From contig QHYJ01000176.1 of the NCBI GenBank assembly GCA_003223255.1, positions 1 to 35,009 on the forward strand: 35,009 nt of DNA. The letters are read 5' to 3'. The notes under the pieces were generated by a model. That model had not been told where the DNA came from. It made no database searches and saw only the letters and a program-made list of their open reading frames with translations. Position 1 is the stretch's first letter, and each line of letters starts with the position of its first letter. Of this stretch, positions 347 through 17,181 are shown piece after piece. Source of the DNA: Acidobacteriota bacterium (GTDB lineage: Bacteria > Acidobacteriota > Terriglobia > Acidiferrales > UBA7541). The position numbers were made by a program, and so were the translations under genes.

Positions 347-805
347 GCGTTGCGGGCAAGGTCCCCTGAGAAAGATCGACCGTGTGCTGCAGGTCCAGCT
401 AACCCCGAAATAGGATAGCAAAGAATGGATTGGAAAATGGAAAAGGGAAAAAAGTGCGAACCGCTGGGGCTGCCCCGAAAGATGACTTCATTTTTCCGGT
501 GGATGGTTTTCAAGTTGCTGGAGGTCGCGCTGCTCGATTTGTTGCATTAGAGCTCTAAGAGAGGCCGTCCCCAAACGGACAGCAGGCAAAGAAAATGTAA
601 AAGGCTTGTAGGAAGGCGGCGAACAAAGGACCGCCGACGCGCGGAGTGCGGCGCCGGAAAGAAAAAGGGCGAGAACTTCGTCCAAAGAATCTGCAGGTCA
701 TGCAAGGAAGAGAACAACCGTACGAAATACTTAGATGAACGCCAAGCGCCTTGCAAGCAGAGGATGAAGGTCTGCCTTCCAGGTTCGCTGAACAAAAGGA
801 GCAGC
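347..805. other. Intergenic gap with no convincing gene
   Basis: About 460 bases separate the epimerase stop from the ABC permease start. Open frames here are short, compositionally odd and resemble no family I recognise. I see no clear terminator hairpin with a T-run, no tRNA and no repeat. It may carry the promoter of the downstream export genes or be the residue of a lost gene. Confidence 0.5.
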
Positions 806-4127: not shown

Positions 4128-5369
4128 CTAGCGATATGCCAGCCGATAGAGAGCCACGCCGGATCCCAGCGCGAGCCCAAATTCCATGGCGCGGAACAGC
4201 GCCTGCTTGGAGCCGCTTTCCGGAACGTATAAAATGTCGCTCGGTTGAAGCCGCAAGTCTTCCGCTTTGCGATTAAGCACCTTCTTCAAATCGATGGGGA
4301 CTTCATGCTGTTGCCCAAGATTGTCCTTGCGCACGATGACCGCTTTGTCGGACTTCGCCGTGCGGGTCAGACCGCCTGCCAGGGACAAGATCTTCAGAGT
4401 CGTCAGTTGCGTGCGATCATTGGAAAGAACGTAGCCTCCGGCGCGACTCACCGCGCCCAAGACGTAGACAACGCCAGCATGGGGAACCGTAACGACGTCT
4501 CCGGCTTGGAGGGGGATGTTGTTGTTGGTGTCGCCTGTTTCCATCAGGTCGGTCAAATTGATGGTGATGGTATTCGTGAGAGGAGGTGGCTCAGCGCTCG
4601 CGGAAGGTCTCGCCGGCGTTGTGGCCGCTCCGGACGCAGGAGTCGAAGACGCGACGTCTTTCTGGCCGACTTGCGGATTGGAGGAAGTACTGGCTGCAGA
4701 AGAAGAAGCCACAGCGTCAGAAGAACGCGTCTCATCAGCAGGGAGAGCCTTGGCGGGAAGGGGTTGCTCGGGACCGATTTCGGGAGGCTCGCCCGCGTCG
4801 GAAAGTGTCTCCTGGGACGGACGCGAGACAATGATGGTGTCACCTGCATCATTGGAGATTCCGCCAGCTTCCGCGAGAACTTCCAGGAGCGTCACGGGCC
4901 GGTCGGCTTCGTACACCATGGGGTGAAGAACAGCGCCAACAATTGTGATGGGCTTGCTCTTGTGTTCCTTGACGCTGACGCTGACATCCGCGTGCGTGAC
5001 CAGGCCGTTGGCTTCCAGCATCTCCGCGATCTTCTGCTCTGTCTGCATTTCCGTCAGGCCCGCGACGTGCAACCGCACGGGAACCAAAGGGATGCCGATC
5101 GTGCCGGTCTGGCTGACGCGCACCTCGCGGCTCAGCTCTTCTACATCAAAAACGTAAATGCTTAAGAGGTCTCCGGGGCCGATCACGTAGTCGTGGGGCA
5201 TCATCCGCAAAGAAGCGGAGAGTTCCCGAAGGCGGTCATTCACTTGTTGCGGCGTTTCGACAACCGGCTGCGCGCGGACGGCTTGCGCACGGCAAGCCGG
5301 GGAAAGAGGGAGCAGTGCGAGCACGGCTGCAGCACACACCACCCCCCCACCCAGTCTAGCTGGCCGCAT
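4128..5369 (-). CDS. Polysaccharide export outer-membrane protein (Wza/OPX type, SLBB domains)
   Basis: A 413-residue secreted exporter subunit forming the outer-membrane or periplasmic channel that works with the Wzc-like protein. It has an N-terminal signal peptide (hydrophobic run VVCAAAVLALLPL ending near CRAQA). A Poly_export domain follows, beginning HDYVIGPGDLLSIYVFDVEEL, with SLBB-type segments (ITIVGAVLHPMVYEADRPVTL and VVYVLGAVSRAGGYVL). The two SLBB regions are separated by about 80 Ser/Ala/Pro-rich residues, longer than usual. A hydrophobic stretch near the C-terminus (FGLALGSGVALYRLAY) could anchor it. ATG 5369 is preferred over GTG 5390 because GGAGG lies upstream of it and the predicted promoter would initiate between the two. 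It sits between the polymerase and co-polymerase genes. Confidence 0.92.
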   Translation of the reverse strand: MRPARLGGGVVCAAAVLALLPLSPACRAQAVRAQPVVETPQQVNDRLRELSASLRMMPHDYVIGPGDLLSIYVFDVEELSREVRVSQTGTIGIPLVPVRLHVAGLTEMQTEQKIAEMLEANGLVTHADVSVSVKEHKSKPITIVGAVLHPMVYEADRPVTLLEVLAEAGGISNDAGDTIIVSRPSQETLSDAGEPPEIGPEQPLPAKALPADETRSSDAVASSSAASTSSNPQVGQKDVASSTPASGAATTPARPSASAEPPPLTNTITINLTDLMETGDTNNNIPLQAGDVVTVPHAGVVYVLGAVSRAGGYVLSNDRTQLTTLKILSLAGGLTRTAKSDKAVIVRKDNLGQQHEVPIDLKKVLNRKAEDLRLQPSDILYVPESGSKQALFRAMEFGLALGSGVALYRLAYR

Positions 5370-5391
5370 GAGAATAGACGACCTCCGCACG

Positions 5392-5418
5392 ATTATACAG
5401 CGATACGGATAAAGTCAA
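5392..5418 (-). promoter_or_regulatory. Candidate sigma-70 promoter inside the EPS operon
   Basis: On the minus strand, TTGACT (5418-5413) and TATAAT (5397-5392) are separated by 15 bases. Both boxes are near consensus but the spacer is short, so strength is doubtful. The site sits exactly in the 49-base gap between the polymerase stop and the OPX start and could drive the export genes separately. Confidence 0.4.
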
Positions 5419-6684
5419 TTAGGGATTTCGAGAACTGCGATGGTGCCGTTGCGTTGGGGACGCAGAAGGAGGTTGTTGAATTTCGGCCGTTGCCAGGTGC
5501 GCCATAAAGAGAAAAAGCCAGAGATTAGCAGGGATGTGGAAGTTGAAGTCGACCAGCGCATGCACGAGCAATCCAGCACAAGCCACGATTCCAGAAAGTT
5601 GCAGGGCTCCCACAAAGGAAAAGTCATTCTGGCGGAAGCGCGAGAAGGATTTGAGCAGCAAAGCCGCGAGAAACCAGGCACAACAGGAACCGCCCAGGAC
5701 GCCTGTTTCGGCAAGGGCCTCCAGGTAGTCGTTGTGGGAGTGATTGACGATTTTAGCGTCATAGAGAGTTTCGTAGGGCGGATACACGATTTGCAGCGTG
5801 CCGAGTCCCGTGCCTGCCAGCGGATGGTCCAGGAAAATGTGCCAGGAGCCTCGGCGCATGGCGGCGCGCTTGCCTTCAGTCACTTCCAGAGACTGGAACG
5901 AGGAGAAGCGCTGCAGAATCTGGCCAACGCCGAGCCATGTAACCATCAGCAGCGCCGCGAGCAAAACCGCGGCCACGCCCAAGAGATGCTTTCCCAAGCC
6001 GCGGCGACGAAGAAGCAGATAGGTGAGAAGCGCAAGTTGCACACAAAAGCTCACGATGCCGCCGCGAGAAGCCGAGAGGAAGAGCGCGGCGATAGGCATG
6101 ACCGCGAAGAGCGCCACGATGGCGAGGCGTTCGCGGCGGACTCTGCCGAGCACCAGAGGAACCAGCGCCAAGGGCAGGACCAACTCCATCAGTCCCGCGA
6201 AGTGGTTGCGATTCACGTAAGGACCGAACGGTATGCCTCCGTAGCGCAGTTCACGGAACCAATAGAGTTTCCCGTTGAAGGTCAGATGCTGCAGAATGCC
6301 GAACACGCTGACCACAAAACCGAGTCCCATGCCAAACCACACGAAGCTGCGCCAATCGTGAAGCGTTCGAAACGCCTGCACGCATAGAAACAGAAGAATC
6401 AGGCTAGCCAGCAACAACGACAGCTCGATGCGCGTGTTGTAGGGAGAAGCACTCGCGCGAAAGAACCACTGTCCCAGACCGACAAGAAAAAAAGCCGCAA
6501 GCGGCGGGAGCAGCGGCGAGAGAACCGGCTGCTCTTTTTCGTGGAAATAAAAGCGCAGGGCCCAGATCGAAAAGAGAAAGGCGGCGCCTGTTTCCAGGAC
6601 GGCGCGCGCCCAATCTTCCACGCCCCCATGGGCGGCCACAGCAAAGCTGATCAGGACGCAGAGGCCCAGGCGCAAAAACTTCAT
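5419..6684 (-). CDS. O-antigen ligase/Wzy-type polysaccharide polymerase
   Basis: A 421-residue multi-spanning inner-membrane protein with about ten hydrophobic helices, of the Wzy_C/WaaL superfamily. It would polymerise repeat units on undecaprenyl pyrophosphate or ligate chains. Family signatures are visible: NRNHFAG at 158-164, SASRGG at 204-209 in the central core, and the periplasmic-loop motif HSHNDYLE at 315-322. The hydrophilic C-terminal tail is short. Its ATG overlaps the stop of the upstream TPR gene by four bases (ATGA), so translation is coupled. In this operon, next to Wza/Wzc homologues, a polymerase role is more likely than a lipid-A ligase role; sequence alone cannot separate them. 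Confidence 0.9.
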   Translation of the reverse strand: MKFLRLGLCVLISFAVAAHGGVEDWARAVLETGAAFLFSIWALRFYFHEKEQPVLSPLLPPLAAFFLVGLGQWFFRASASPYNTRIELSLLLASLILLFLCVQAFRTLHDWRSFVWFGMGLGFVVSVFGILQHLTFNGKLYWFRELRYGGIPFGPYVNRNHFAGLMELVLPLALVPLVLGRVRRERLAIVALFAVMPIAALFLSASRGGIVSFCVQLALLTYLLLRRRGLGKHLLGVAAVLLAALLMVTWLGVGQILQRFSSFQSLEVTEGKRAAMRRGSWHIFLDHPLAGTGLGTLQIVYPPYETLYDAKIVNHSHNDYLEALAETGVLGGSCCAWFLAALLLKSFSRFRQNDFSFVGALQLSGIVACAGLLVHALVDFNFHIPANLWLFLFMAHLATAEIQQPPSASPTQRHHRSSRNP

Positions 6685-7991
6685 GGCTTGGGAGGCTCCG
6701 ATGCGGCAGGGGTTTGCGTGACCGGAACCAGGGCGACGTCATCTACCCAAGTCATCCCCTGAATCTTGTCATCGACTTCTCGGCTGGGCAAACGCTCCAG
6801 GCAAACTTGCATTTGCTGAACATTTTTTCCGGAAGACCAGGGAATCTCGACGCGGCTCCAGGGTTGGGTGCCGCGAAAATCGCTTGTATCAACCGGCGAA
6901 GCGTCCGGGGTTCCCAGCGGGCGCAATTGGAAGCGGATGCCCTGTTCCGTGGTTATGGATTGAGTCCGCACCCAGGCGGAGAAGTCGTAGTCCGTGGAAG
7001 GTTCCACCGGAACCTCCACACACGGACCGAGGAGATGGAGATTGTATCGGCCATTGAACAGCAGGCGCAGCGATTGCTTACCCGAGTGCTTTTCGCGGGT
7101 ATCCAAGCTAAATTGGGCGCCCTGGGCTCCCGCGGGCAGCGCCCAGGCAAAACCACTTCCAAAGATACCGGCTTCGAAACCCCCATCCCAAAGTACAGAA
7201 CCGGCGGGCTCAGGAAGGTTGCCCAGGCCGGCAAAATCCACGGCTTGCTCCCAAACGCGCTGGGCTTCCGCGACTTGTCTTTCTCTTAGGAGAGCGCTGA
7301 CCAAAGAAAAAGAGTAGTTTCCCAGGCGCAGCTTGGGACGAAGAGCGGCGAGGCGGTTCCAGACCTGAAAGGCATTCATTGTATGGCCCTCGCTGATCTG
7401 TTCGGCAATTGCGCTTACATAGGCGTCACTCAACGGTGGAAGGACGCGGTCAAGAACGAGGTTAGTGTTGGGCTCGGCGCTTAGAGCCCGAGAAAGCGCT
7501 TCGGCGCCACGCTTCGGTTCGGTCTCCACGGCATGGCGCATCTCGAGGAAGGCGTTGTTGGTTTCACCTTCCCGGAGGAGAAAGTTGCCGTAGCGCCAGG
7601 AAATCTCGGCGGAAAGAGGATAGGCTTTTTTGGCGTGAAGAAACGCATCGCGCGCTGCTGTGGTGTTGCCTTCGGCTTCGTACGCGGCGCCCAGATCGGC
7701 CCAGATGTCCGCGGAACGAGGATTGAGTGACAGCGCGACGAGATAGGCCTGGACAGCGCGGGCGGTATCCGTGTCTTCCAGGTTGTATTGCCAATAGCGG
7801 CCCAACAGGTACCAATTCTCAAAGTTCTTTGGCTCCAGCCGGGTGGCGCGCTCGTAACCCTGGAGAGTCTGAAGGCCGGCATAATGAGCGGCGAGCGCGT
7901 TGCGAATGCTGAAATAAGAAAGAAGCAGCACGCAAACAAGAGCAACGGCGGGGACGACAGCACGACGCGAGGAACTGGAAGGCTGGCTCAT
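6681..7991 (-). CDS. Membrane-anchored TPR protein with C-terminal carbohydrate-binding-like domain
   Basis: A 436-residue protein beginning with a signal-anchor helix (AVVPAVALVCVLLLSYFSI, residues 11-29). Tetratricopeptide-type repeats follow (YERATRLEPKNFENWYLLGRYW, the next two repeats through about residue 150). From about residue 255 a beta-rich domain starts WDGGFEAGIFGSGFAW, with an SLRLLFNG strand and a closing WVDDVALVP. That pattern is typical of carbohydrate-binding-module-like or discoidin-like folds in acidobacterial proteins. It is the first gene of the EPS operon and faces the RiPP cluster across a 278-base divergent region. A scaffold or glycan-sensing role in the exopolysaccharide machine is inferred. 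ATG 7991 has no obvious Shine-Dalgarno. Confidence 0.85.
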   Translation of the reverse strand: MSQPSSSSRRAVVPAVALVCVLLLSYFSIRNALAAHYAGLQTLQGYERATRLEPKNFENWYLLGRYWQYNLEDTDTARAVQAYLVALSLNPRSADIWADLGAAYEAEGNTTAARDAFLHAKKAYPLSAEISWRYGNFLLREGETNNAFLEMRHAVETEPKRGAEALSRALSAEPNTNLVLDRVLPPLSDAYVSAIAEQISEGHTMNAFQVWNRLAALRPKLRLGNYSFSLVSALLRERQVAEAQRVWEQAVDFAGLGNLPEPAGSVLWDGGFEAGIFGSGFAWALPAGAQGAQFSLDTREKHSGKQSLRLLFNGRYNLHLLGPCVEVPVEPSTDYDFSAWVRTQSITTEQGIRFQLRPLGTPDASPVDTSDFRGTQPWSRVEIPWSSGKNVQQMQVCLERLPSREVDDKIQGMTWVDDVALVPVTQTPAASEPPKP

Positions 7992-8269: not shown

Positions 8270-10099
8270 TTGAGTGGTTTCATTTGCATCCTCCATTGGG
8301 ACAACGCGCCGATTGACCGGGCGCTGCTCGAATCCCTGACCGATTTTCTGTCTTTTCGAGGTCCAGACGCGTGCGAAGTTTGCCTCGATGGCTCCATCGG
8401 CATGGGTCATGCTCTGCTGCGAACGACGCACGAGTCGAAAAACGAGCGGCAGCCGGCGAGTCTCGAAGAACGCTACCGGATTGTCGCGGATGCCCGGCTG
8501 GACGCTCGGGAGGAACTCATCGATGAGCTGCAGCGGACTGGGCGTAACGTTTGCCCAGACATGCCGGACGGCGATTTGCTTTTGCATGCCTATGCGGCTT
8601 GGGGCGCATCGTGCGTCGATCACTTGCTTGGGGATTTTTCTTTCGCGCTCTGGGACGCCCGCTGTAAACAACTTTTCTGCGCCAGGGATCATTTTGGTGT
8701 CAAGCCCTTCTACTATGCGAGCATCGGCGCGCTTGTTGTCCTGAGTAACACGCTGAATTGCATCCGGCACCATCCAGCCGTCTCGGCACAGCTGAACGAC
8801 CTCGCGATTGCTGATTTTCTGCTATTCGACACGATCCGGGAGTCGGGAGCTACGTCTTTCCGCGACATCCAGAGGCTGCCACCCGCGCACATTCTTGCGT
8901 GCGAGCAAGGAAGAATTTCCGTTCGCCGCTACTGGACGCTGCCAGTGAGCGACCCGATTCATCACAAGCGGCCGGGCGAATGCCTTGACGAATTCCGGGA
9001 ATTAATGGATCGCGCTGTCGCAGACCGCATGAGAATGGACAGTGTGGCGGTGTTGATGAGCGGAGGGCTCGATTCTCCCACCGTGGCGGCGATCGCCAAG
9101 CGGGCACTAAATGGCAATAAGACCCCTGCCGGATTGCGCGCCTATACGGAAGTGTTTGAAAGGCTGATTCCGCACGAAGAACGCCGGTATGCCGAACTCG
9201 TTGTGGGGGCGCTGAAAATCCCGATTGAATTTCAAGTGAGTGATGAGATCGGGTTGTGGAAGGATGCAGATCAGCACGGGAATGGTTGGCCCGAGCCCAT
9301 ACATTCGCCGTTCTCCGATGGTGGGCTGAGCCAGTTACGCCAAGTTGCAGCCGGAAACTGTGTAGCTTTGACCGGATTTGGAGGCGACCCCGCACTTTCG
9401 TGTCAGCTTTCCGTCCATTTTTCCCTGTTGCTTAAGAACAGGCAGATTCGTCGAGCGCTGAGCGATGTGGTGCGATACTTCGCTGCGGAAGGCAGGTTCT
9501 CGCGGTTGTACCTTCGCACGCGCTGGCAGATATGGTTTGGAGACAAGAGTCAAACTCCGCAGTATCCCGTATGGCTGAACCAGGACTTGGAAAAGCCCCT
9601 GGGTTTGCGCGAGCGTTGGGAAACGTTTATGCGCAGTCCGGCCCGCCCCGGAGCCTCACGCGCAACAGCCCAGGAGGCAGTGGCCGATCCCTTTTGGCCA
9701 AACCTGTTTGAGGGTTACGATCCCGGTGTGACAAGCATCCCCGTGGAAGTTCGCCATCCCTTTTTTGACCTTCGGCTTGTAACCTTCTTGCTGGCTTTGC
9801 CAGCGCTGCCCTGGTGCTCCGACAAGGAGCTGCTGAGAGAGGCTGCTCGCGGCGTCCTGCCGGACGCGGTGCGGCTGCGGCGGAAGTCACCGCTCCCGGC
9901 CGACCCTTTGATTGCGCTTCTCGAGCGGCCCGAATCAAAGTGGGTGGATTCTTTTGAAGCCGTCCCGGAGCTCGGTCGTTACGTGGAGCGGAAACGCATC
10001 CCGAAAGTGTTTGGGGAAAAAGATGCTTGGACAGCGTGGATTCATTTGCGTCCGCTCAGTCTGAACTTTTGGTTGCGGTCGAGGGCGGCAGCGGGATAG
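8270..10099 (+). CDS. Asparagine-synthetase-like lasso-peptide macrocyclase (C protein)
   Basis: A 609-residue AsnB homologue. In lasso peptide pathways this enzyme adenylates an Asp/Glu side chain and closes the macrolactam ring. The N-terminal class II glutaminase-like domain (about 1-200) starts MSGFICILHW, so the Cys2 nucleophile of true asparagine synthetases is Ser. A functional ammonia-producing site is therefore absent, as in many lasso cyclases. The synthetase domain keeps the PP-loop SGGLDS at 264-269 and GFGGD at 369-373. The latter replaces the GEGGDE of ordinary AsnB, again cyclase-like. The start is TTG at 8270, with AGGGG nine bases upstream. The precursor peptide gene starts 19 bases after its stop, which makes the lasso-type assignment strong. 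Ordinary asparagine synthesis is unlikely. Confidence 0.88.
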   Translation: MSGFICILHWDNAPIDRALLESLTDFLSFRGPDACEVCLDGSIGMGHALLRTTHESKNERQPASLEERYRIVADARLDAREELIDELQRTGRNVCPDMPDGDLLLHAYAAWGASCVDHLLGDFSFALWDARCKQLFCARDHFGVKPFYYASIGALVVLSNTLNCIRHHPAVSAQLNDLAIADFLLFDTIRESGATSFRDIQRLPPAHILACEQGRISVRRYWTLPVSDPIHHKRPGECLDEFRELMDRAVADRMRMDSVAVLMSGGLDSPTVAAIAKRALNGNKTPAGLRAYTEVFERLIPHEERRYAELVVGALKIPIEFQVSDEIGLWKDADQHGNGWPEPIHSPFSDGGLSQLRQVAAGNCVALTGFGGDPALSCQLSVHFSLLLKNRQIRRALSDVVRYFAAEGRFSRLYLRTRWQIWFGDKSQTPQYPVWLNQDLEKPLGLRERWETFMRSPARPGASRATAQEAVADPFWPNLFEGYDPGVTSIPVEVRHPFFDLRLVTFLLALPALPWCSDKELLREAARGVLPDAVRLRRKSPLPADPLIALLERPESKWVDSFEAVPELGRYVERKRIPKVFGEKDAWTAWIHLRPLSLNFWLRSRAAAG

Positions 10100-10118
10100 A
10101 CTTCCTTGGAGGCGCCGA

Positions 10119-10268
10119 GTGACGTCGAATTCGCGGGAAGGTAGCAAGAAAAAGCCATACCAGAAACCTAACCTCCGCGTCTACGGAGACATCCGAACGA
10201 TGACCCAGACCGTCCCGAGAGGGAGCGGAAAGGCAGACGCCACAAAGGGCTCCAATAAAACTCACTGA
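10119..10268 (+). CDS. Lasso-type RiPP precursor peptide (49 aa, GTG start)
   Basis: A small gene missed by length filters. GTG at 10119 has GGAGG at 10108-10112, six bases upstream. The peptide contains the canonical lasso leader signature Y14-x2-P17-x-L19-x3-G23-x5-T29 (KPYQKPNLRVYGDIRTMTQ), recognised by the B1/RRE component and marking the leader end by the penultimate Thr. With canonical cleavage the core is TVPRGSGKADATKGSNKTH (residues 31-49): strongly basic, Gly-rich, without aromatic or aliphatic plugs. The only acidic residue in it is D40, at core position 10, outside the known 7-9 ring range. The gene lies between the cyclase (19-base gap) and the kinase (21-base gap). Leader identification is firm; core boundary and topology are open. 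Confidence 0.88.
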   Translation: MTSNSREGSKKKPYQKPNLRVYGDIRTMTQTVPRGSGKADATKGSNKTH

Positions 10269-10289
10269 CGGTCACCCTCCGAGGAACTT

Positions 10290-11300
10290 TTGTCAGTATC
10301 GCATACTGTCTATGGGCTGCGAGTTGCAGCCAACATAGCTATCCCCGGCATCTCCCCACGGCTTGATTCAAACGCGTATGATGTACGAGTGCGGCTAAGA
10401 AAGTGGCCTAAATTCCCCTCGACATTTCTTGAGTCCATTGAGGTTTTCCATACGAGTTCAAACGTGATGGCCGGCGGCCAGCCAAACCTGCGCGTCGGTC
10501 TGTTCCCCGGCGGAGAGCATTTTGGCTTCTTTTATGGGGATGGAGCGCGATTCATCGTCGACCGCCGCGGATGCGAAGTGTGGGCTGATTGGCCGGAAGA
10601 TTATTCGCTCGAAGACGCTTGCACCTATTTGCTCGGGCCGGTGATGGGATTTGTGTTGCGCCTCCGCAGAACGGTTTGCCTCCATGCGAGTGCCGTGGCC
10701 ATAAATGATCGCGCTATTACGCTGGTGGGCCCTCCGGGTGCTGGCAAATCAACCGCCGCGGCAGCCTTTGCGCGCGCAGGGTTCCCGGTCCTTTCTGACG
10801 ACGTCGTTGCGCTTGTTGACCATGGAACCGAGTTTCTTGTGCCTCCGGGTTATCCCAGGGTGAACTTGTGGCCGGATTCAGTTCGGAGATTATTTGGATC
10901 CGAAAATGCTCTGCCGCGCATCGCGCCCACGTGGGACAAGCGTTACTTGGCACTTGGCCAGAACGGCCACGGTTTCGCTTCCAGCCCGTTACCGCTCGGG
11001 GCCATCTATACCCTGGACAGTCGCAACGCAGCCGTTAGCAGTCCTGTCTTGGACGAAATTTCCGGTGAAGAGGCATTCATGGCGCTCGTGGCCAACACGT
11101 ATGTGAACTATCTTCTTGACCAGGAGATGCTGCGCACAGAGTTTGATGTGCTTGGCCGCTTGGTCTCGAGCATCCCTATTCGTCGAGTGCGGCCTTCCGC
11201 CGAATCCTCGGCCACCTTCAACCTTTGCGGGTCCATTGCTGCTGACGTCAAGCGAGTGATGACACGCGCTGCTGCCACTGCAGCTGCAGTACGCGGATAA
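10290..11300 (+). CDS. HPr-kinase-like RiPP peptide kinase
   Basis: A 336-residue protein whose C-terminal half resembles the HPr kinase/phosphorylase catalytic domain. It has HASAV with H132, the P-loop GPPGAGKST at 147-155, and the metal-binding or general-base acidic pair SDDVV at D170-D171. The N-terminal 120 residues are divergent and may bind substrate. Homologues in lasso clusters (PadeK, ThcoK) phosphorylate the C-terminal residue or side chain of the precursor. The core here ends SNKTH and has several Ser/Thr candidates. The start is TTG at 10290, with GAGGA at 10281-10285. It follows the precursor by 21 bases and precedes the methyltransferase by 7, one transcription unit. The role as a tailoring kinase is inferred from family plus context. 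Confidence 0.85.
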   Translation: MSVSHTVYGLRVAANIAIPGISPRLDSNAYDVRVRLRKWPKFPSTFLESIEVFHTSSNVMAGGQPNLRVGLFPGGEHFGFFYGDGARFIVDRRGCEVWADWPEDYSLEDACTYLLGPVMGFVLRLRRTVCLHASAVAINDRAITLVGPPGAGKSTAAAAFARAGFPVLSDDVVALVDHGTEFLVPPGYPRVNLWPDSVRRLFGSENALPRIAPTWDKRYLALGQNGHGFASSPLPLGAIYTLDSRNAAVSSPVLDEISGEEAFMALVANTYVNYLLDQEMLRTEFDVLGRLVSSIPIRRVRPSAESSATFNLCGSIAADVKRVMTRAAATAAAVRG

Positions 11301-11307
11301 ACCCCCC

Positions 11308-12456
11308 ATGTACAGCCTGGGTGCCTATGGCTCGATGATAGCGGATCGCGTTCGCGTCGACGCTTATAAGGAAGCTCTACGAAAGACCGTTCGGAAGGGA
11401 TCCGTTGTCGCGGAAATTGGCACGGGACCGGGTGTCTTCGCGGTGCTGGCATGCCAGCTCGGGGCCGAACGAGTCTTTGCCATCGAGCCGGCTGAGATTA
11501 TTCAAGTGGCGCGCGAGGTTGCTGCCGCCAATGGCTGCGCTGGCAGAATCGAGTTTTTCGAGGGGCTTTCTAGCGGGGTGACCCTTCCCGCTCGGGCCGA
11601 CGTCATCCTCTCCGATCTCAGGGGCATCCTCCCGCTTTTCGAGCGCCACATCCCCGCTATCGCGGACGCACGGCGCCGCTTTCTTGCCCCCGGCGGGACC
11701 ATTGTTCCACGAAGGGACACCCTTTGGGCTGCGATCGTGGAAGCTCCAAGACCCTACGGCGAAGTCGTGGATCCTTGGGACCTGAATCCTTTCGGTCAAA
11801 ACCTGAGTCCAGTGCGGCAGCTCGCGGTGAACAATGTGCAAAAAGTGCGTGTAAGTCCTGCCCAGCTTTTGACTGGGCATAAACTCTGGGCCACGCTGGA
11901 TTATGCCAGCATTCAAAACCCTGATGTTCGGGGGAATTTGGAGTGGACAGTGGACCGCACCGGAACCGGCCACGGAATCGTCGTGTGGTTCAATGCGGAT
12001 CTCGCGGAAAACATAGGCTTCTCCAATGCTCCCGGTGCACCCGAGACCATCTACGGATCTTTCTTCTTCCCCTGGACGCAACCTATGCCTTTAAGACAGG
12101 GGCAAACCGTGTGTGTCGACCTCGCGGCGAAGTTGGTCGAAAATGACTACCTCTGGCGATGGACCACGCGCATCAAGCCGCTCTTGGGATCAAGCACTTC
12201 TCCTGTCCATTTTGACCAATCGCAGTTTGCCGGAGCGGTCTTGTCCGCCGCGCAGCTTCACAGAATCGCCGCGGATTATATTCCCCGGCTATCGGACGAG
12301 GGAGTCCTGCGCCGCAGAACTTTCGAGTTGATGGACGGGAGAGCTTCGCTCGAAGAAATCGCGCACAAGCTCGTGGCCGAATTTCCCCATCGATTCTCGA
12401 GCTGGCAACAAGCTTTGTCGTACGCCGGTTTGCTCTCGCAAGAATTCAGCCGCTAA
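11308..12456 (+). CDS. PRMT-like SAM methyltransferase with C-terminal PqqD-like (RRE) tail
   Basis: A 382-residue class I methyltransferase in the protein arginine methyltransferase fold. It has SAM motif I (VAEIGTGPG, 34-42), the acidic end of strand 2 (FAIEP), motif DVILSDLRG where classical PRMTs have the double-Glu hairpin, GGTIVPRRDTLW, and a beta-barrel-like middle part. The PRMT Glu loop is not conserved, so arginine may not be the target. Residues about 322-380 (LSDEGVLRRRTFELMDG, then LEEIAHKLVAEF and a final GLLSQE) look like the winged-helix part of PqqD, the leader-binding RRE or B1 module. The fusion would bring the methyltransferase to the leader. It is the last gene of the operon; no strong Shine-Dalgarno before ATG 11308, so coupling to the kinase is likely. 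Confidence 0.8.
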   Translation: MYSLGAYGSMIADRVRVDAYKEALRKTVRKGSVVAEIGTGPGVFAVLACQLGAERVFAIEPAEIIQVAREVAAANGCAGRIEFFEGLSSGVTLPARADVILSDLRGILPLFERHIPAIADARRRFLAPGGTIVPRRDTLWAAIVEAPRPYGEVVDPWDLNPFGQNLSPVRQLAVNNVQKVRVSPAQLLTGHKLWATLDYASIQNPDVRGNLEWTVDRTGTGHGIVVWFNADLAENIGFSNAPGAPETIYGSFFFPWTQPMPLRQGQTVCVDLAAKLVENDYLWRWTTRIKPLLGSSTSPVHFDQSQFAGAVLSAAQLHRIAADYIPRLSDEGVLRRRTFELMDGRASLEEIAHKLVAEFPHRFSSWQQALSYAGLLSQEFSR

Positions 12457-12520
12457 GCAAATCCAGATTCAGCCTGGCGAGGAAATGCAGACGGCGCAGC
12501 ACTTTGCTTTGTCATTCGGT

Positions 12521-13702
12521 TCAGTCTTTGCCGGCGCGACTATATTTTCGTGCCAAGCGGAAGGGCCGGCGCAAGGCGTCGAGTACAGGATTGCTGCTCA
12601 TCATCTTGCCATCGGCCTGCCAGTCCTCTTCCGTGGGTGAAAAAGAAAGTCTTAGCAGATACGCCGGAGCCGCGAGAAAGTTGCCGCGCATGCGCAGGCG
12701 AAACGCCGCGCGTTCGAATAGACCGAGGTGAGCGTACCCCGGGGCAGGCAGCCAGTGAAGCACGCGCGCCGCAAGCTTTGCGGCCACGGCGTCTTCCCGC
12801 ACGCGCGCAGCAATCGGTTCTGGAAGTTCGGCATGGAGAACATCCATAGCCAGCCGCAAGCCGGTGTGTAGTAGATGCTCGGCCTGCACGGCGTTTGCGG
12901 ACAAGCCAGCGCGCTCCCAACCGATGCCCGGTTGCCGCGCCATCAAGCCCGCGACGTCCGCGATCGAGCCGAGTCTCTTCCAGAAATGCTTCGCGCCATG
13001 AACGCAAATAAGCACGAGATGATCCTCGAGTGAAGGTGCGGGCACTTCATGCCCATCGACGCGCACGCGAATCCGCCGGGCGATGAAATCTTCGATGGGA
13101 ACGGGACGGGGAAAATAACGCAGCGTCAAGTTATTGTGAAGCTCGACGAGCAATTTCGAATCAGGCTTGCAGAAAAGATATTGCCCCGGAATTTTGCCTG
13201 CCCGAATGGCGTCGAGAGAAACCGTTGCTTGGTAGCCAGAACCAATCAGCAACCCCGTAGCGCGCCGGATGTCCCGCTGCCGTACGAGCAGGTCGAGATC
13301 GCCGTAGCTTCGCATTGCTGGGTCGGCGTAAGCCTCGACAGCTAGGACTGGTCCCTTGATGACCAATGCTGAAATTTCATTTCGGTTGAAAAGTTCCAGC
13401 AGACGAAAGAGCTCTCCCGTCAAGCGAAGCGTGAGGAAATTCTGCTCGCGCTGTCGTTCGAGTAGCGCCTGTTGGATTTCGGGAGGCATGGCGGCGTCGC
13501 AATCGTTCAGGCAAGCCGCGAGCTGTCCAACCAGGCCATGCTTGTCAGCGAGCATGAGCAAGCGAGGCCAGTCCACGGTGGGAAAATATTGCCGCAGCCG
13601 TTCTTTGTCGCTCCAAGGAGAAACGCATTCTCGCAGCGCGGTCCATTCGCGCTCGAACGCGCGGTTGTCGGAGATCCGCTCCGCTGAAAGCAGTTCAGCC
13701 AT
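12521..13702 (-). CDS. Nucleotidyltransferase family protein (NTP_transf_5 type, RiPP-associated)
   Basis: A 393-residue cytoplasmic protein with the nucleotidyltransferase signature of this family: IKGPVLAVEAYADPAMRSYGDLDLLV, with the GDLDLLV metal-binding aspartates and the upstream Lys. A helical region follows, containing HGAKHFWKRLGSIADVAGLM. Members are frequent beside lasso clusters carrying a kinase (PadeN in the paeninodin cluster), though their function there is not established. It is convergent with the methyltransferase (64-base gap), so it is not in the same transcript. ATG 13702 is chosen because AGGGA lies just upstream. Assignment to the RiPP system rests on family co-occurrence. 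Confidence 0.85.
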   Translation of the reverse strand: MAELLSAERISDNRAFEREWTALRECVSPWSDKERLRQYFPTVDWPRLLMLADKHGLVGQLAACLNDCDAAMPPEIQQALLERQREQNFLTLRLTGELFRLLELFNRNEISALVIKGPVLAVEAYADPAMRSYGDLDLLVRQRDIRRATGLLIGSGYQATVSLDAIRAGKIPGQYLFCKPDSKLLVELHNNLTLRYFPRPVPIEDFIARRIRVRVDGHEVPAPSLEDHLVLICVHGAKHFWKRLGSIADVAGLMARQPGIGWERAGLSANAVQAEHLLHTGLRLAMDVLHAELPEPIAARVREDAVAAKLAARVLHWLPAPGYAHLGLFERAAFRLRMRGNFLAAPAYLLRLSFSPTEEDWQADGKMMSSNPVLDALRRPFRLARKYSRAGKD

Positions 13703-13940
13703 GGTGATCCCTGAGCTTATCAATGAATCGGTTTGCTCTCACGAATCGAATCGTGGCTTAGGGTGGTTTTCTGGAGAGCTTACAAATCAAAACGACGGGG
13801 CCATCCAACCTCAGGAGTCAAACCTGGGCAAGTTACTTTCTCCTCGCAATGAGCCCACACGATAAGCCAGCTCGCGGCTTCGACGGCGCCGTTTGGAACT
13901 TCTCCCCATTTTTGTTTGTCAGGGTCCGGAAACCGTGGAG

Positions 13941-15082: not shown

Positions 15083-15781
15083 ATGATTACTGTACGGCTC
15101 GCGGTTCTATTTTTCACGTTAACTCTGAACCTCGGCGCTCTTTTCGCGCAATCCGCTCCCGATGCCACCGTCCACGTCGACACCACTCCCTCTCACCAAA
15201 TCAATTCCTTCGATCCCGACTCCGCCCTCGGCAGCTCCCTGGACGTTCTCTCCCGGCGCGACATCGACCGCGTCCACACGCCGCACATCGTTCAGGAGTC
15301 CGTCTCCGCGGGCTGGGGGCCCATCACCTATCGCAACAACAGCGAGCTCCGCATGGCCGCCTGGCACTGGACGGAATCGGGCACCTGGAGCGACGAAGCT
15401 CACAAGAGCGGATACTTCACCGGCAGTAGCGAGCTCAAGGAGCCGCTCCGCTACATCCTGAGCTACGCGCTACCCCAAAAAGCAATCCCTACCTCAGCGG
15501 CAAATTCACTGGCGAATCGGATGCACTCCATCCACAATGGGTCATCGTCGATCTCCAATCCGAGAAACAAATCAATGCCACGCGCATTCGGTGGGCTTCT
15601 CCGTTCGCAAAAACCTATCAAGTCGAATATTGGGTGGGCACTGACGCGCTCGATTTCGACGGCGGCCCCCAAGGCCAATGGAAAGTTTTCAATTCAGGCA
15701 AAATTGAAAACGCGCAAGGTGGAACGCAAATTCTCAAGCTTGCAGACGTGCCCGTCTCCTCGCGTTACGTCCGCATTCTGA
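15083..15781 (+). CDS. Secreted glycoside-hydrolase-like protein, N-terminal part (frameshifted)
   Basis: The authentic part is residues 1 to about 131: a signal peptide (AVLFFTLTLNLGALFAQ) and a beta-rich region (HQINSFDPDSALGSSLDVLS, TYRNNSELRMAAWHW) similar to the heads of large acidobacterial glycosidases. At 15473-15481 (CCCCAAAAA) the frame is lost. One added base restores L-P-x-K-S-N-P-Y and the discoidin-like domain in the frame that continues to 17181. After the tract this frame codes for Ser/Lys-rich nonsense up to 15781. The intact gene would be about 699 residues. ATG 15083 has GGAGA eight bases upstream and a good promoter. The lesion could be a sequencing slip in a homopolymer or a genuine mutation. 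Confidence 0.8.
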   Translation: MITVRLAVLFFTLTLNLGALFAQSAPDATVHVDTTPSHQINSFDPDSALGSSLDVLSRRDIDRVHTPHIVQESVSAGWGPITYRNNSELRMAAWHWTESGTWSDEAHKSGYFTGSSELKEPLRYILSYALPQKAIPTSAANSLANRMHSIHNGSSSISNPRNKSMPRAFGGLLRSQKPIKSNIGWALTRSISTAAPKANGKFSIQAKLKTRKVERKFSSLQTCPSPRVTSAF

Positions 15782-17181
15782 TGTCAGAATCGTCGAACAC
15801 TTGTGATGAACACGATCCAAACGACAGTCGCAACTGCGTCGGCTATGCCGTCCAACAAATCGAGCTCGGCAGCATCGATGCTAGCGGCAGATTCGCGCCT
15901 GCGCCAAGAGATCCCGCGGAACGCGCGACAACCTATACTGGCTCCTCCATCGATCCCTGGCATTCTGCAGAAGACATCCGCGATGGCGGCGACTATCAGC
16001 ACACCGGCTTCGATCTCTTCTTCACCAGCGGTATCACCAACAATTTGCCCGCGATGATTCCCGTCACCATGCTCTACGGCACTCCCGAAGATGCCGCCGC
16101 GCAAATTGCCTACATCGAAAAACGCGGCTATCCCATCAGCTATATCGAAATGGGCGAAGAGCCCGACGGCAAACATACCATGCCGGAAGATTATGCCGCT
16201 CTGTACATCCAGTGGGCCGGCGCAATCCACAAGGTCGATCCAAAATTGAAACTTGGCGGCCCCATTTTCGAAGGCGTCAACAAGGACATCACGCTGTGGC
16301 CCGATTCCAAGGGCCGCATCTCGTGGATGGGCCGATTTGTCGCTTATCTAAAAGACCACCACCATCTTTCCGATCTCGCCTTCGTTTCCTTCGAGCACTA
16401 TCCGTTCGAGCCCTGTACCATCACCTGGAAGGATCTCTATCGCGAACCGCAACTCATGAAAGGCATCCTGCAAATATGGCGTGCTGACGGCGTGCCGAAA
16501 GACGTTCCCCTCATGGTCACCGAGAATCATCTCTCCTGGCAGCTCACGGGTCCCATGACCACAATTTTCGCGGCGCTTTGGCTCGCCGATAACGTCGGTT
16601 CATTTTTCGAAGGTGGCGGCGCCGCCTTTTACCACTCGCCGATTCAGCCGCAGGGAGTGAACAACACCTGCCTCGGTTGGTCATCCTGGTCGAATTTCGT
16701 CTCCAATGAAAACTACGAAATCAGAGGCTACACCTCGCCGTACTACGCGGCTCGCTTGATCAATCTCGAATGGGTGCAGCACCGCTCGGGCGTTCATCAA
16801 ATGTTTCCATCCGCAACCAACATCAAAGATGCTGACGGAAATCTCCTGGTCACTACTTACGCGCTGCATCGTCCTGACGGCAACTGGTCACTCCTGCTCG
16901 TTAATCGCGACGAAAATAATTCGCACACCGTTCGCGCCTCTTTCGAAGATGCAAAAGAAAAACGCAATTCATCTTTCTTCGGAAATGTTTTCCTCCTTAG
17001 TTTCGGCTCCGATCAATACGTCTGGATCAACGACGGCCCCAACAGCCATCCCGACCCCAATCTTCCTCCCTCCGCCGCAATCATCGACACCGACTCGCAA
17101 ACCATCTTCACGCTGCCCAAAGCCTCCATTACCGTCATCCGCGGACGATTGCGAAAGTGGCCGCAACAACTACCGGTGTAA
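15481..17181 (+). CDS. Secreted glycoside-hydrolase-like protein, discoidin plus TIM-barrel part
   Basis: Continuation of the gene beginning at 15083 in the shifted frame; the first conventional ATG is 15634. It starts with an F5/8 type C-like (discoidin) domain: PQWVIVDLQSEKQINATRIRW, then VEYWVGTDALDF, closing with SSRYVRILMSESS. A barrel-like catalytic region follows with YIEMGEEPDG (candidate acid/base Glu, at the strand 4 position of clan GH-A enzymes) and VPLMVTENHLSW (candidate nucleophile Glu). A C-terminal beta domain (WSLLLVNRDENNSHTVRASF) completes it. The fold suggests a clan A glycosidase of GH39/GH30-like type; the substrate is unknown. It is a single-gene unit, possibly for polysaccharide degradation outside the cell. 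Confidence 0.8.
   Translation, partial: SNPYLSGKFTGESDALHPQWVIVDLQSEKQINATRIRWASPFAKTYQVEYWVGTDALDFDGGPQGQWKVFNSGKIENAQGGTQILKLADVPVSSRYVRILMSESSNTCDEHDPNDSRNCVGYAVQQIELGSIDASGRFAPAPRDPAERATTYTGSSIDPWHSAEDIRDGGDYQHTGFDLFFTSGITNNLPAMIPVTMLYGTPEDAAAQIAYIEKRGYPISYIEMGEEPDGKHTMPEDYAALYIQWAGAIHKVDPKLKLGGPIFEGVNKDITLWPDSKGRISWMGRFVAYLKDHHHLSDLAFVSFEHYPFEPCTITWKDLYREPQLMKGILQIWRADGVPKDVPLMVTENHLSWQLTGPMTTIFAALWLADNVGSFFEGGGAAFYHSPIQPQGVNNTCLGWSSWSNFVSNENYEIRGYTSPYYAARLINLEWVQHRSGVHQMFPSATNIKDADGNLLVTTYALHRPDGNWSLLLVNRDENNSHTVRASFEDAKEKRNSSFFGNVFLLSFGSDQYVWINDGPNSHPDPNLPPSAAIIDTDSQTIFTLPKASITVIRGRLRKWPQQLPV

Follow-up and report, generated by a model that had tools for sequence, protein, structure and literature searches.

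A predicted split lasso-type RiPP pathway with a PRMT-fold methyltransferase in an Acidobacteriota genome

Lasso peptide clusters of the paeninodin and pseudomycoidin type encode a cyclase, a precursor, an HprK-like kinase and, in pseudomycoidin, a nucleotidyltransferase-like protein. Their precursors share a leader motif with Thr at position -2, and in characterised precursors Tyr(-17) together with Thr(-2) sets the leader register (PMC10368454). A phosphorylated lasso system outside the Firmicutes, as is also predicted here, is the bsf cluster of Bradymonas, where the kinase BsfK and the nucleotidyltransferase BsfN occur with a discrete B1 protein (PMC10368454). A cluster resembling both was analysed on contig QHYJ01000176.1 of an Acidobacteriota bacterium (assembly GCA_003223255.1, a 6.66 Mb draft in 428 contigs, of which this one is C116). 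The window, meaning the whole 35,009-nt stretch, probably encodes one half, that for tailoring and cyclisation, of a split lasso-type pathway for a ribosomally synthesized and post-translationally modified peptide (RiPP), and this reading is given a probability of roughly 0.6.

Cyclase, precursor, kinase, nucleotidyltransferase, leader motif and Thr(-2) are common to the window and the paeninodin/pseudomycoidin-type clusters. The window differs in having no local B1 or B2 and no noted transporter, in the addition of a methyltransferase with the fold of protein arginine methyltransferases (PRMTs), and in a core with a conserved [K/R]T instead of a terminal Ser and with the ring Asp at position 10. 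Compared with bsf, the kinase H, K, S and D residues match, whereas in bsf the genes for B1, B2 and D stand together in a single cluster, Ser3 is the phosphorylated residue, the ring has 8 residues and no methyltransferase is listed (PMC10368454). S-adenosylmethionine (SAM)-dependent methyltransferases do occur in other lasso clusters, namely StspM, a lassomycin-type C-terminal O-methyltransferase, and LihM, an aspartimide-forming enzyme of the protein isoaspartyl methyltransferase (PIMT) type, but both belong to enzyme families other than that of the window enzyme.

Gene content and conserved order of the cluster

A previous sequence-only reading had described five genes in the window as a lasso-type RiPP cluster. 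All five intact reading frames were confirmed, each with the expected family match. They encode, on the plus strand, the AsnB-like macrolactam cyclase C (609 aa, 8270–10099, TTG start), the precursor A (49 aa, 10119–10268, GTG start), the HprK-like peptide kinase K (336 aa, 10290–11300) and the PRMT-fold methyltransferase M (382 aa, 11308–12456) and, on the minus strand, the nucleotidyltransferase-like protein N (12521–13723), for which the earlier end point, 13702, is an internal ATG. Profile matches were Asn_synthase (1.8e-26) and GATase_7 (1.4e-22), PRMT_C (1.7e-8) and NTP_transf_5 (2.9e-50). The NCBIfam matches, to lasso precursor NF033528 (8.4e-6), HprK_rel_A (2.5e-13) and the lasso cyclase family of the next paragraph, fall short of the curated cut-offs, and these proteins are therefore regarded as divergent family members.

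The best family for the cyclase was lasso cyclase NF033535 (1.1e-104), compared with 3.4e-56 for asparagine synthase TIGR01536. Glutamine-dependent asparagine synthetases use Cys2 as nucleophile. The window cyclase has Ser at this position and is without the glutaminase Cys, and its N-terminus (M1, S2, G3) and ATP-site motif SGGLDS were found to be invariant across 13 homologues. Three of the AsnB-like paralogues in the same genome, as extracted, start M-C-G. Moreover, a starred branch of value 100 parts five own-genome paralogues from the window cyclase and the cyclases found in lasso contexts. An ordinary asparagine synthetase is therefore ruled out by Ser2, the NCBIfam ranking and the tree, the last being a check that the sequence-only reading had proposed. 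A sixth own-genome paralogue, L009 on contig C17, also lacks the Cys; the tree places it among lasso-type cyclases, where its branch is long and unsafe. At that locus the Cys-less AsnB-like proteins are apparently in tandem; tandem cyclases resembling L009 adjoin a B2 in four other loci (L151, L152, L156 and L157), possibly representing a two-cyclase type of RiPP cluster.

In the kinase, H132, K153, S154 and D171 are invariant in 14 homologues, and position 170 is Asp in the window and Glu in some relatives. The H-K-D-D motif of paeninodin-type kinases is thus present, as judged by comparison with BsfK (PMC10368454). The nucleotidyltransferase-like protein carries a DxD motif (GDLDLLV). It adjoins M in most homologous loci but is absent within several kb of two of them (L036 and L040), and N is therefore not obligatory. 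An NTP_transf_5 protein in a kinase-bearing lasso cluster is typical of the pseudomycoidin type, in which PsmN appears to add a sugar to the phosphate (PMC9266682); by analogy, a PsmN-like role of N is possible. The earlier likening of kinase and nucleotidyltransferase to paeninodin-type loci is borne out, as is the lasso-type assignment by the cyclase profile, the leader motif with Thr(-2) and a recurring gene order.

This order was followed through about 100 related loci. At least 14 of them share C-A-K-M, in most cases together with N, the homologous loci do contain the precursor, and the layout of the window is conserved in four relatives. Across 95 genomes of the order, 57 have a window-type lasso cyclase; the typical cluster reads B1-B2-C-A-K, and some clusters add M and N. 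The protein search for M matched 21 of the 95, some matches being PRMT-like paralogues outside lasso clusters. The nearest named relatives of M come from Acidobacteriota records. Erythrobacter donghaensis, Tropicimonas and one metagenome-assembled genome each of Nitrospira, Deltaproteobacteria and Planctomycetota likewise carry M within a lasso cluster. K was present in 26/26 lasso-linked M loci with a readable neighbourhood, spanning records from Acidobacteriota, Alphaproteobacteria, Nitrospira, Deltaproteobacteria and Planctomycetota.

Predicted core, ring size and phosphosite

The precursor gene is preceded by a GGAGG Shine-Dalgarno (10108–10112, plus strand), TTGGAGGCGC upstream of the GTG, which is kept in the window and in three relatives (L036, L037 and L038). 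Compared with its nearest relative, 8 amino-acid changes were observed where 13.9 are expected neutrally (P = 0.0014), as for a precursor that is under purifying selection. The leader (residues 1–30, 10119–10208) carries the lasso motif YxxPxLxxxG, here YQKPNLRVYGDIRTMTQ, with Tyr(-17), Gly(-8) and Thr(-2); Thr is found at -2 in all listed precursors of methyltransferase-bearing clusters. Because Tyr(-17) and Thr(-2) fix the leader register, the core is predicted to be TVPRGSGKADATKGSNKTH (residues 31–49, 10209–10265). Its sole acidic residue is Asp40 (10236–10238), at core position 10, which would act as isopeptide acceptor of a 10-residue ring.

Every core from a methyltransferase-bearing cluster has one acidic residue, at position 8, 9, 10 or 11 (in one, five, seven and one of 14 cores, respectively). 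Among 38 cores of the order counted as lacking M, the acidic residue lies at position 9 in 30, at 8 in seven and at 10 in one; in two of these loci (L198 and L210), as well as in L150 outside the count, the contig breaks off behind the kinase, and M may be present there. The association of an enlarged ring with M gave a raw Fisher P of 3e-5, whereas a phylogenetically independent pairs test, with 5 pairs only, was not significant. A causal tie between M and the enlarged ring is not claimed, as the raw value fails once shared ancestry is respected.

According to a 2026 review, structurally characterised lasso rings comprise 7, 8 or 9 residues (PMC13352647). The ring predicted here would thus be one residue larger than that of any characterised natural lasso peptide found, and a ten-residue ring is tolerated in an engineered fusilassin variant (PMC8498205, PMC13352647). 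Since the Asp lies outside positions 7 to 9, the product is called lasso-type on account of the enzymes and does not count as a proven lasso peptide. Two loci elsewhere hold more than one precursor. L039 contains tandem A-K-M units with two different precursors, whose predicted ring Asp is at position 10 and 11. In L190, one of two precursors combines a short core, RTGTNRRGDCKR, with an altered end of the leader (DLRL) and is possibly a decaying copy.

The C-proximal part of the core is also conserved. [KRH]T was found within the last five residues in 13/14 cores from methyltransferase-bearing clusters and in 29/38 of the others. In the window this is Lys47-Thr48 (10257–10262), and the core comparison makes Thr48 the likely phosphosite. 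A C-terminal Ser, the site in paeninodin, is unlikely here because the core ends NKTH.

A PRMT-fold methyltransferase in a predicted peptide pathway

M (METHYLTRANSFERASE) consists of a SAM-binding fold, a PRMT-type beta barrel to about residue 295 and a C-terminal helical domain (residues about 300–382, 12205–12453). A profile of 16 members matches PRMT structures in the PDB at E 1e-42, and the likeness to PRMT1, PRMT6 and PRMT8 covers about residues 8–290. The predicted model (predicted local distance difference test, pLDDT, 86) resembles PRMT1 at a Foldseek template modelling (TM) score of 0.71. Canonical PRMTs are marked by the double-E loop and the THW loop. M departs from both: the first loop has S-D instead of S-E, with Asp103 invariant in all 16 members, position 112, that of the second Glu, varies, and the window has T-I-Y where THW is expected. 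M further differs from PRMT1/6/8 in its extra helical domain and its peptide-pathway context. Because these active-site residues are changed, arginine is not assured as substrate. M-linked cores of three more distant clusters (L056, L095 and L101) contain no Arg or Lys.

A PIMT or aspartimide enzyme was also considered for M and is ruled out by the PRMT fold; in contrast to LihM substrates, no core from a methyltransferase-bearing cluster has a free acidic side chain from which an aspartimide could form. Methylation of the C-terminal carboxylate, as by StspM, is possible. No PRMT-fold enzyme in a lasso pathway was described in the literature searched, which omits most subscription journals, in agreement with the earlier remark that this combination is not known to be characterised.

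Nearly every lasso-linked member has the C-terminal helical domain, with L058 and L094 stopping near position 320. Most of the non-lasso PRMT-like proteins found lack it and stop short of about position 300, with L066 and L098 as borderline cases. Bacterial PRMT-like proteins of this kind outside lasso clusters, mostly without the domain, were seen in L054, L064–L067 and L102–L104. From the sequence alone M had been called an RRE-methyltransferase, i.e. one with a RiPP recognition element. The methyltransferase half of this name holds with the PRMT fold; the RRE half is less certain than it had appeared. The domain resembles Pfam PqqD at a sub-threshold E of 0.14. When it was compared by itself in Foldseek, the PqqD structure 3g2b was the top match at E 0.92 and the lasso B1 structure 6jx3 ranked 14, with no E-value significant (all near 1 and above). 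A first profile comparison gave 1.4% probability; the wider hhalign alignment scored 19.0 against a maximum of 15.6 in 40 shuffled controls, yet at 4% probability, with the stretch MDGRASLEEIA in register with PqqD. The predicted model of the domain shows no beta-hairpin half of an RRE. A proven RRE was therefore rejected on these probabilities, and the resemblance is kept as suggestive of a degenerate PqqD helical half.

Distant B1 and B2 genes and alternative readings

B1 and B2 were not found in the window, and a search of the same genome placed B2 on contigs C62 and C317 only. Contig C62 carries an orphan PqqD-B2 (B1-B2) pair in which the conserved Cys and His are kept. On contig C317 (1–777), a B2 peptidase (358–777, minus strand) adjoins a cyclase fragment that is truncated where the contig ends, a second lasso-type locus of this genome. 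The two B2 proteins are 22% identical, and C317 is less likely than C62 to be the partner of the window. An orphan pair was found in 13/14 genomes with a cluster lacking B1 and B2; in the twelve besides this genome, it also lies on another contig. The orphan pair follows a tetratricopeptide repeat (TPR) gene that shares 50–78% identity with the one at the start of intact TPR-B1-B2-C-A-K-M-N operons in two loci (L047 and L048). The simplest history suggested by these sequences is that C-A-K-M-N left the ancestral locus for a polysaccharide locus, and that B1-B2 stayed behind and now act in trans. In the split pathway and the ring position the cluster is more unusual than had first been noted.

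Under this reading, modification would take place on the linear precursor, as is known for ThcoK, SyanK and StspM (PMC8498205, PMC9266682). The kinase would phosphorylate the precursor, most likely at Thr48 next to the basic residue. M would methylate it, probably near the C-terminal end, at a Lys or Arg side chain, the C-terminal carboxylate or a phosphoester, and its helical domain may help to recognise the substrate. B1 (PqqD/RRE) and B2 (peptidase) from the separate TPR-B1-B2 locus would then bind the leader and cut after Gln30, with Thr29 at -2. Finally, the cyclase would activate Asp40 with ATP and couple it to the Thr31 amine; the product would be a macrolactam of 10 residues that bears a tail of 9, and N may decorate the phosphate with a sugar, as PsmN appears to do. 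What the sequences show is the gene content, its conserved order, the homologies, the conserved residues and the co-occurrence with orphan B1-B2, from which each enzymatic step, the threading of the ring, the action in trans and the modification sites are inferred. The phosphorylated and methylated product proposed earlier is kept as a prediction, while arginine methylation cannot be read off and phosphorylation of a C-terminal Ser is unlikely.

Several points weigh against this reading. No product is known, a transporter gene was not seen among the cluster genes, and the core tail has few bulky plug residues. Asp10 lies outside the positions 7–9 of characterised natural lasso peptides (PMC13352647), so that the ring might not close or thread, or the leader might be cut elsewhere. 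Trans action is predicted from co-occurrence only, and in these draft genomes the cyclase and B1-B2 loci may still be linked at long range. One genome that is 96% complete (G024, locus L195) has the cluster, and B2 was not found in it, either through a gap or because its pathway is B2-free. Conversely, three genomes (G013, G017 and G026) carry an orphan B2, beside a PqqD in G013 and G026, and a cyclase of the window type was not found there; the split argument is accordingly of limited strength.

The absence of B1 and B2 from the window, the case of G024 and the second B2, which adjoins a cyclase fragment where C317 ends, would also fit a decayed remnant whose own B1/B2 were lost, with the orphan pair serving another pathway. 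This is very unlikely given five intact frames in a layout conserved in four relatives, a precursor under purifying selection, and orphan pairs in 13/14 split genomes behind a TPR gene shared with intact operons. Rather unlikely is a branched-cyclic macrolactam made by lasso-derived enzymes, in which a ring of 10 or 11 residues holds no tail. The predicted ring sizes, the 7–9 residues of characterised natural rings and the scarcity of aromatic plug residues in the tails argue for it, but the engineered fusilassin ring, the close relationship of cyclases with ring-9 precursors (L037 compared with the window) and a phosphate or sugar on the tail Thr, which could serve as plug, argue for threading.

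The ring would have an ordinary size if the core began one or two residues later, with nine residues from Val32 to Asp40, and leaders with Ile or Val at -2 are exceptions to the Thr(-2) rule (PMC10368454). However, Thr stands at the 16th position from the leader Tyr in all precursors of methyltransferase-bearing clusters, whether the Asp is at 8, 9, 10 or 11, and position -2 would become Gln, Arg or Leu, which makes a later start unlikely. As for M, it is doubtful, though somewhat conceivable, that the enzyme truly N-methylates arginine or lysine, with the basic residues of the peptide as targets. Sequence and fold match PRMT1/6/8, and each core from a methyltransferase-bearing cluster of the window's clade contains Lys or Arg and places a basic residue ahead of the conserved Thr; the invariant Asp103, the variable position 112, the T-I-Y loop and the distant cores free of Lys and Arg speak against it.

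The split lasso-type pathway could be extended to a whole lasso family with natural 10–11-residue rings, small tails held by a phosphorylated (and methylated or glycosylated) Thr as plug, a PRMT-fold methyltransferase with a degenerate leader-recognition domain, and B1-B2 in trans; that all of this applies together is tentative and on the unlikely side. If true, a further, unrelated methyltransferase fold joins lasso tailoring, short ribosomal peptides become a new substrate class for PRMT-fold enzymes, and the predicted rings of 10 or 11 residues would be the first of that size in nature. Moreover, the leader-processing half of a lasso pathway could sit apart from the cyclase, and genome mining that demands B1 and B2 beside the cyclase would drop such clusters as incomplete.

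Upstream of the cluster, the window holds polysaccharide genes on the minus strand (4128–7991; Poly_export/SLBB, Wzy_C O-antigen ligase and a TPR protein). Polysaccharide export, O-antigen ligase and TPR genes recur beside lasso clusters of the order at L036–L042, L046, L051 and L188–L196; they are given as context only, and no functional link to the lasso pathway is claimed. Downstream, at 15083–17181, a glycosyl-hydrolase-like frame is broken over the overlapping frames 15083–15781 and 15634–17181, which suggests a frameshift or an assembly error.

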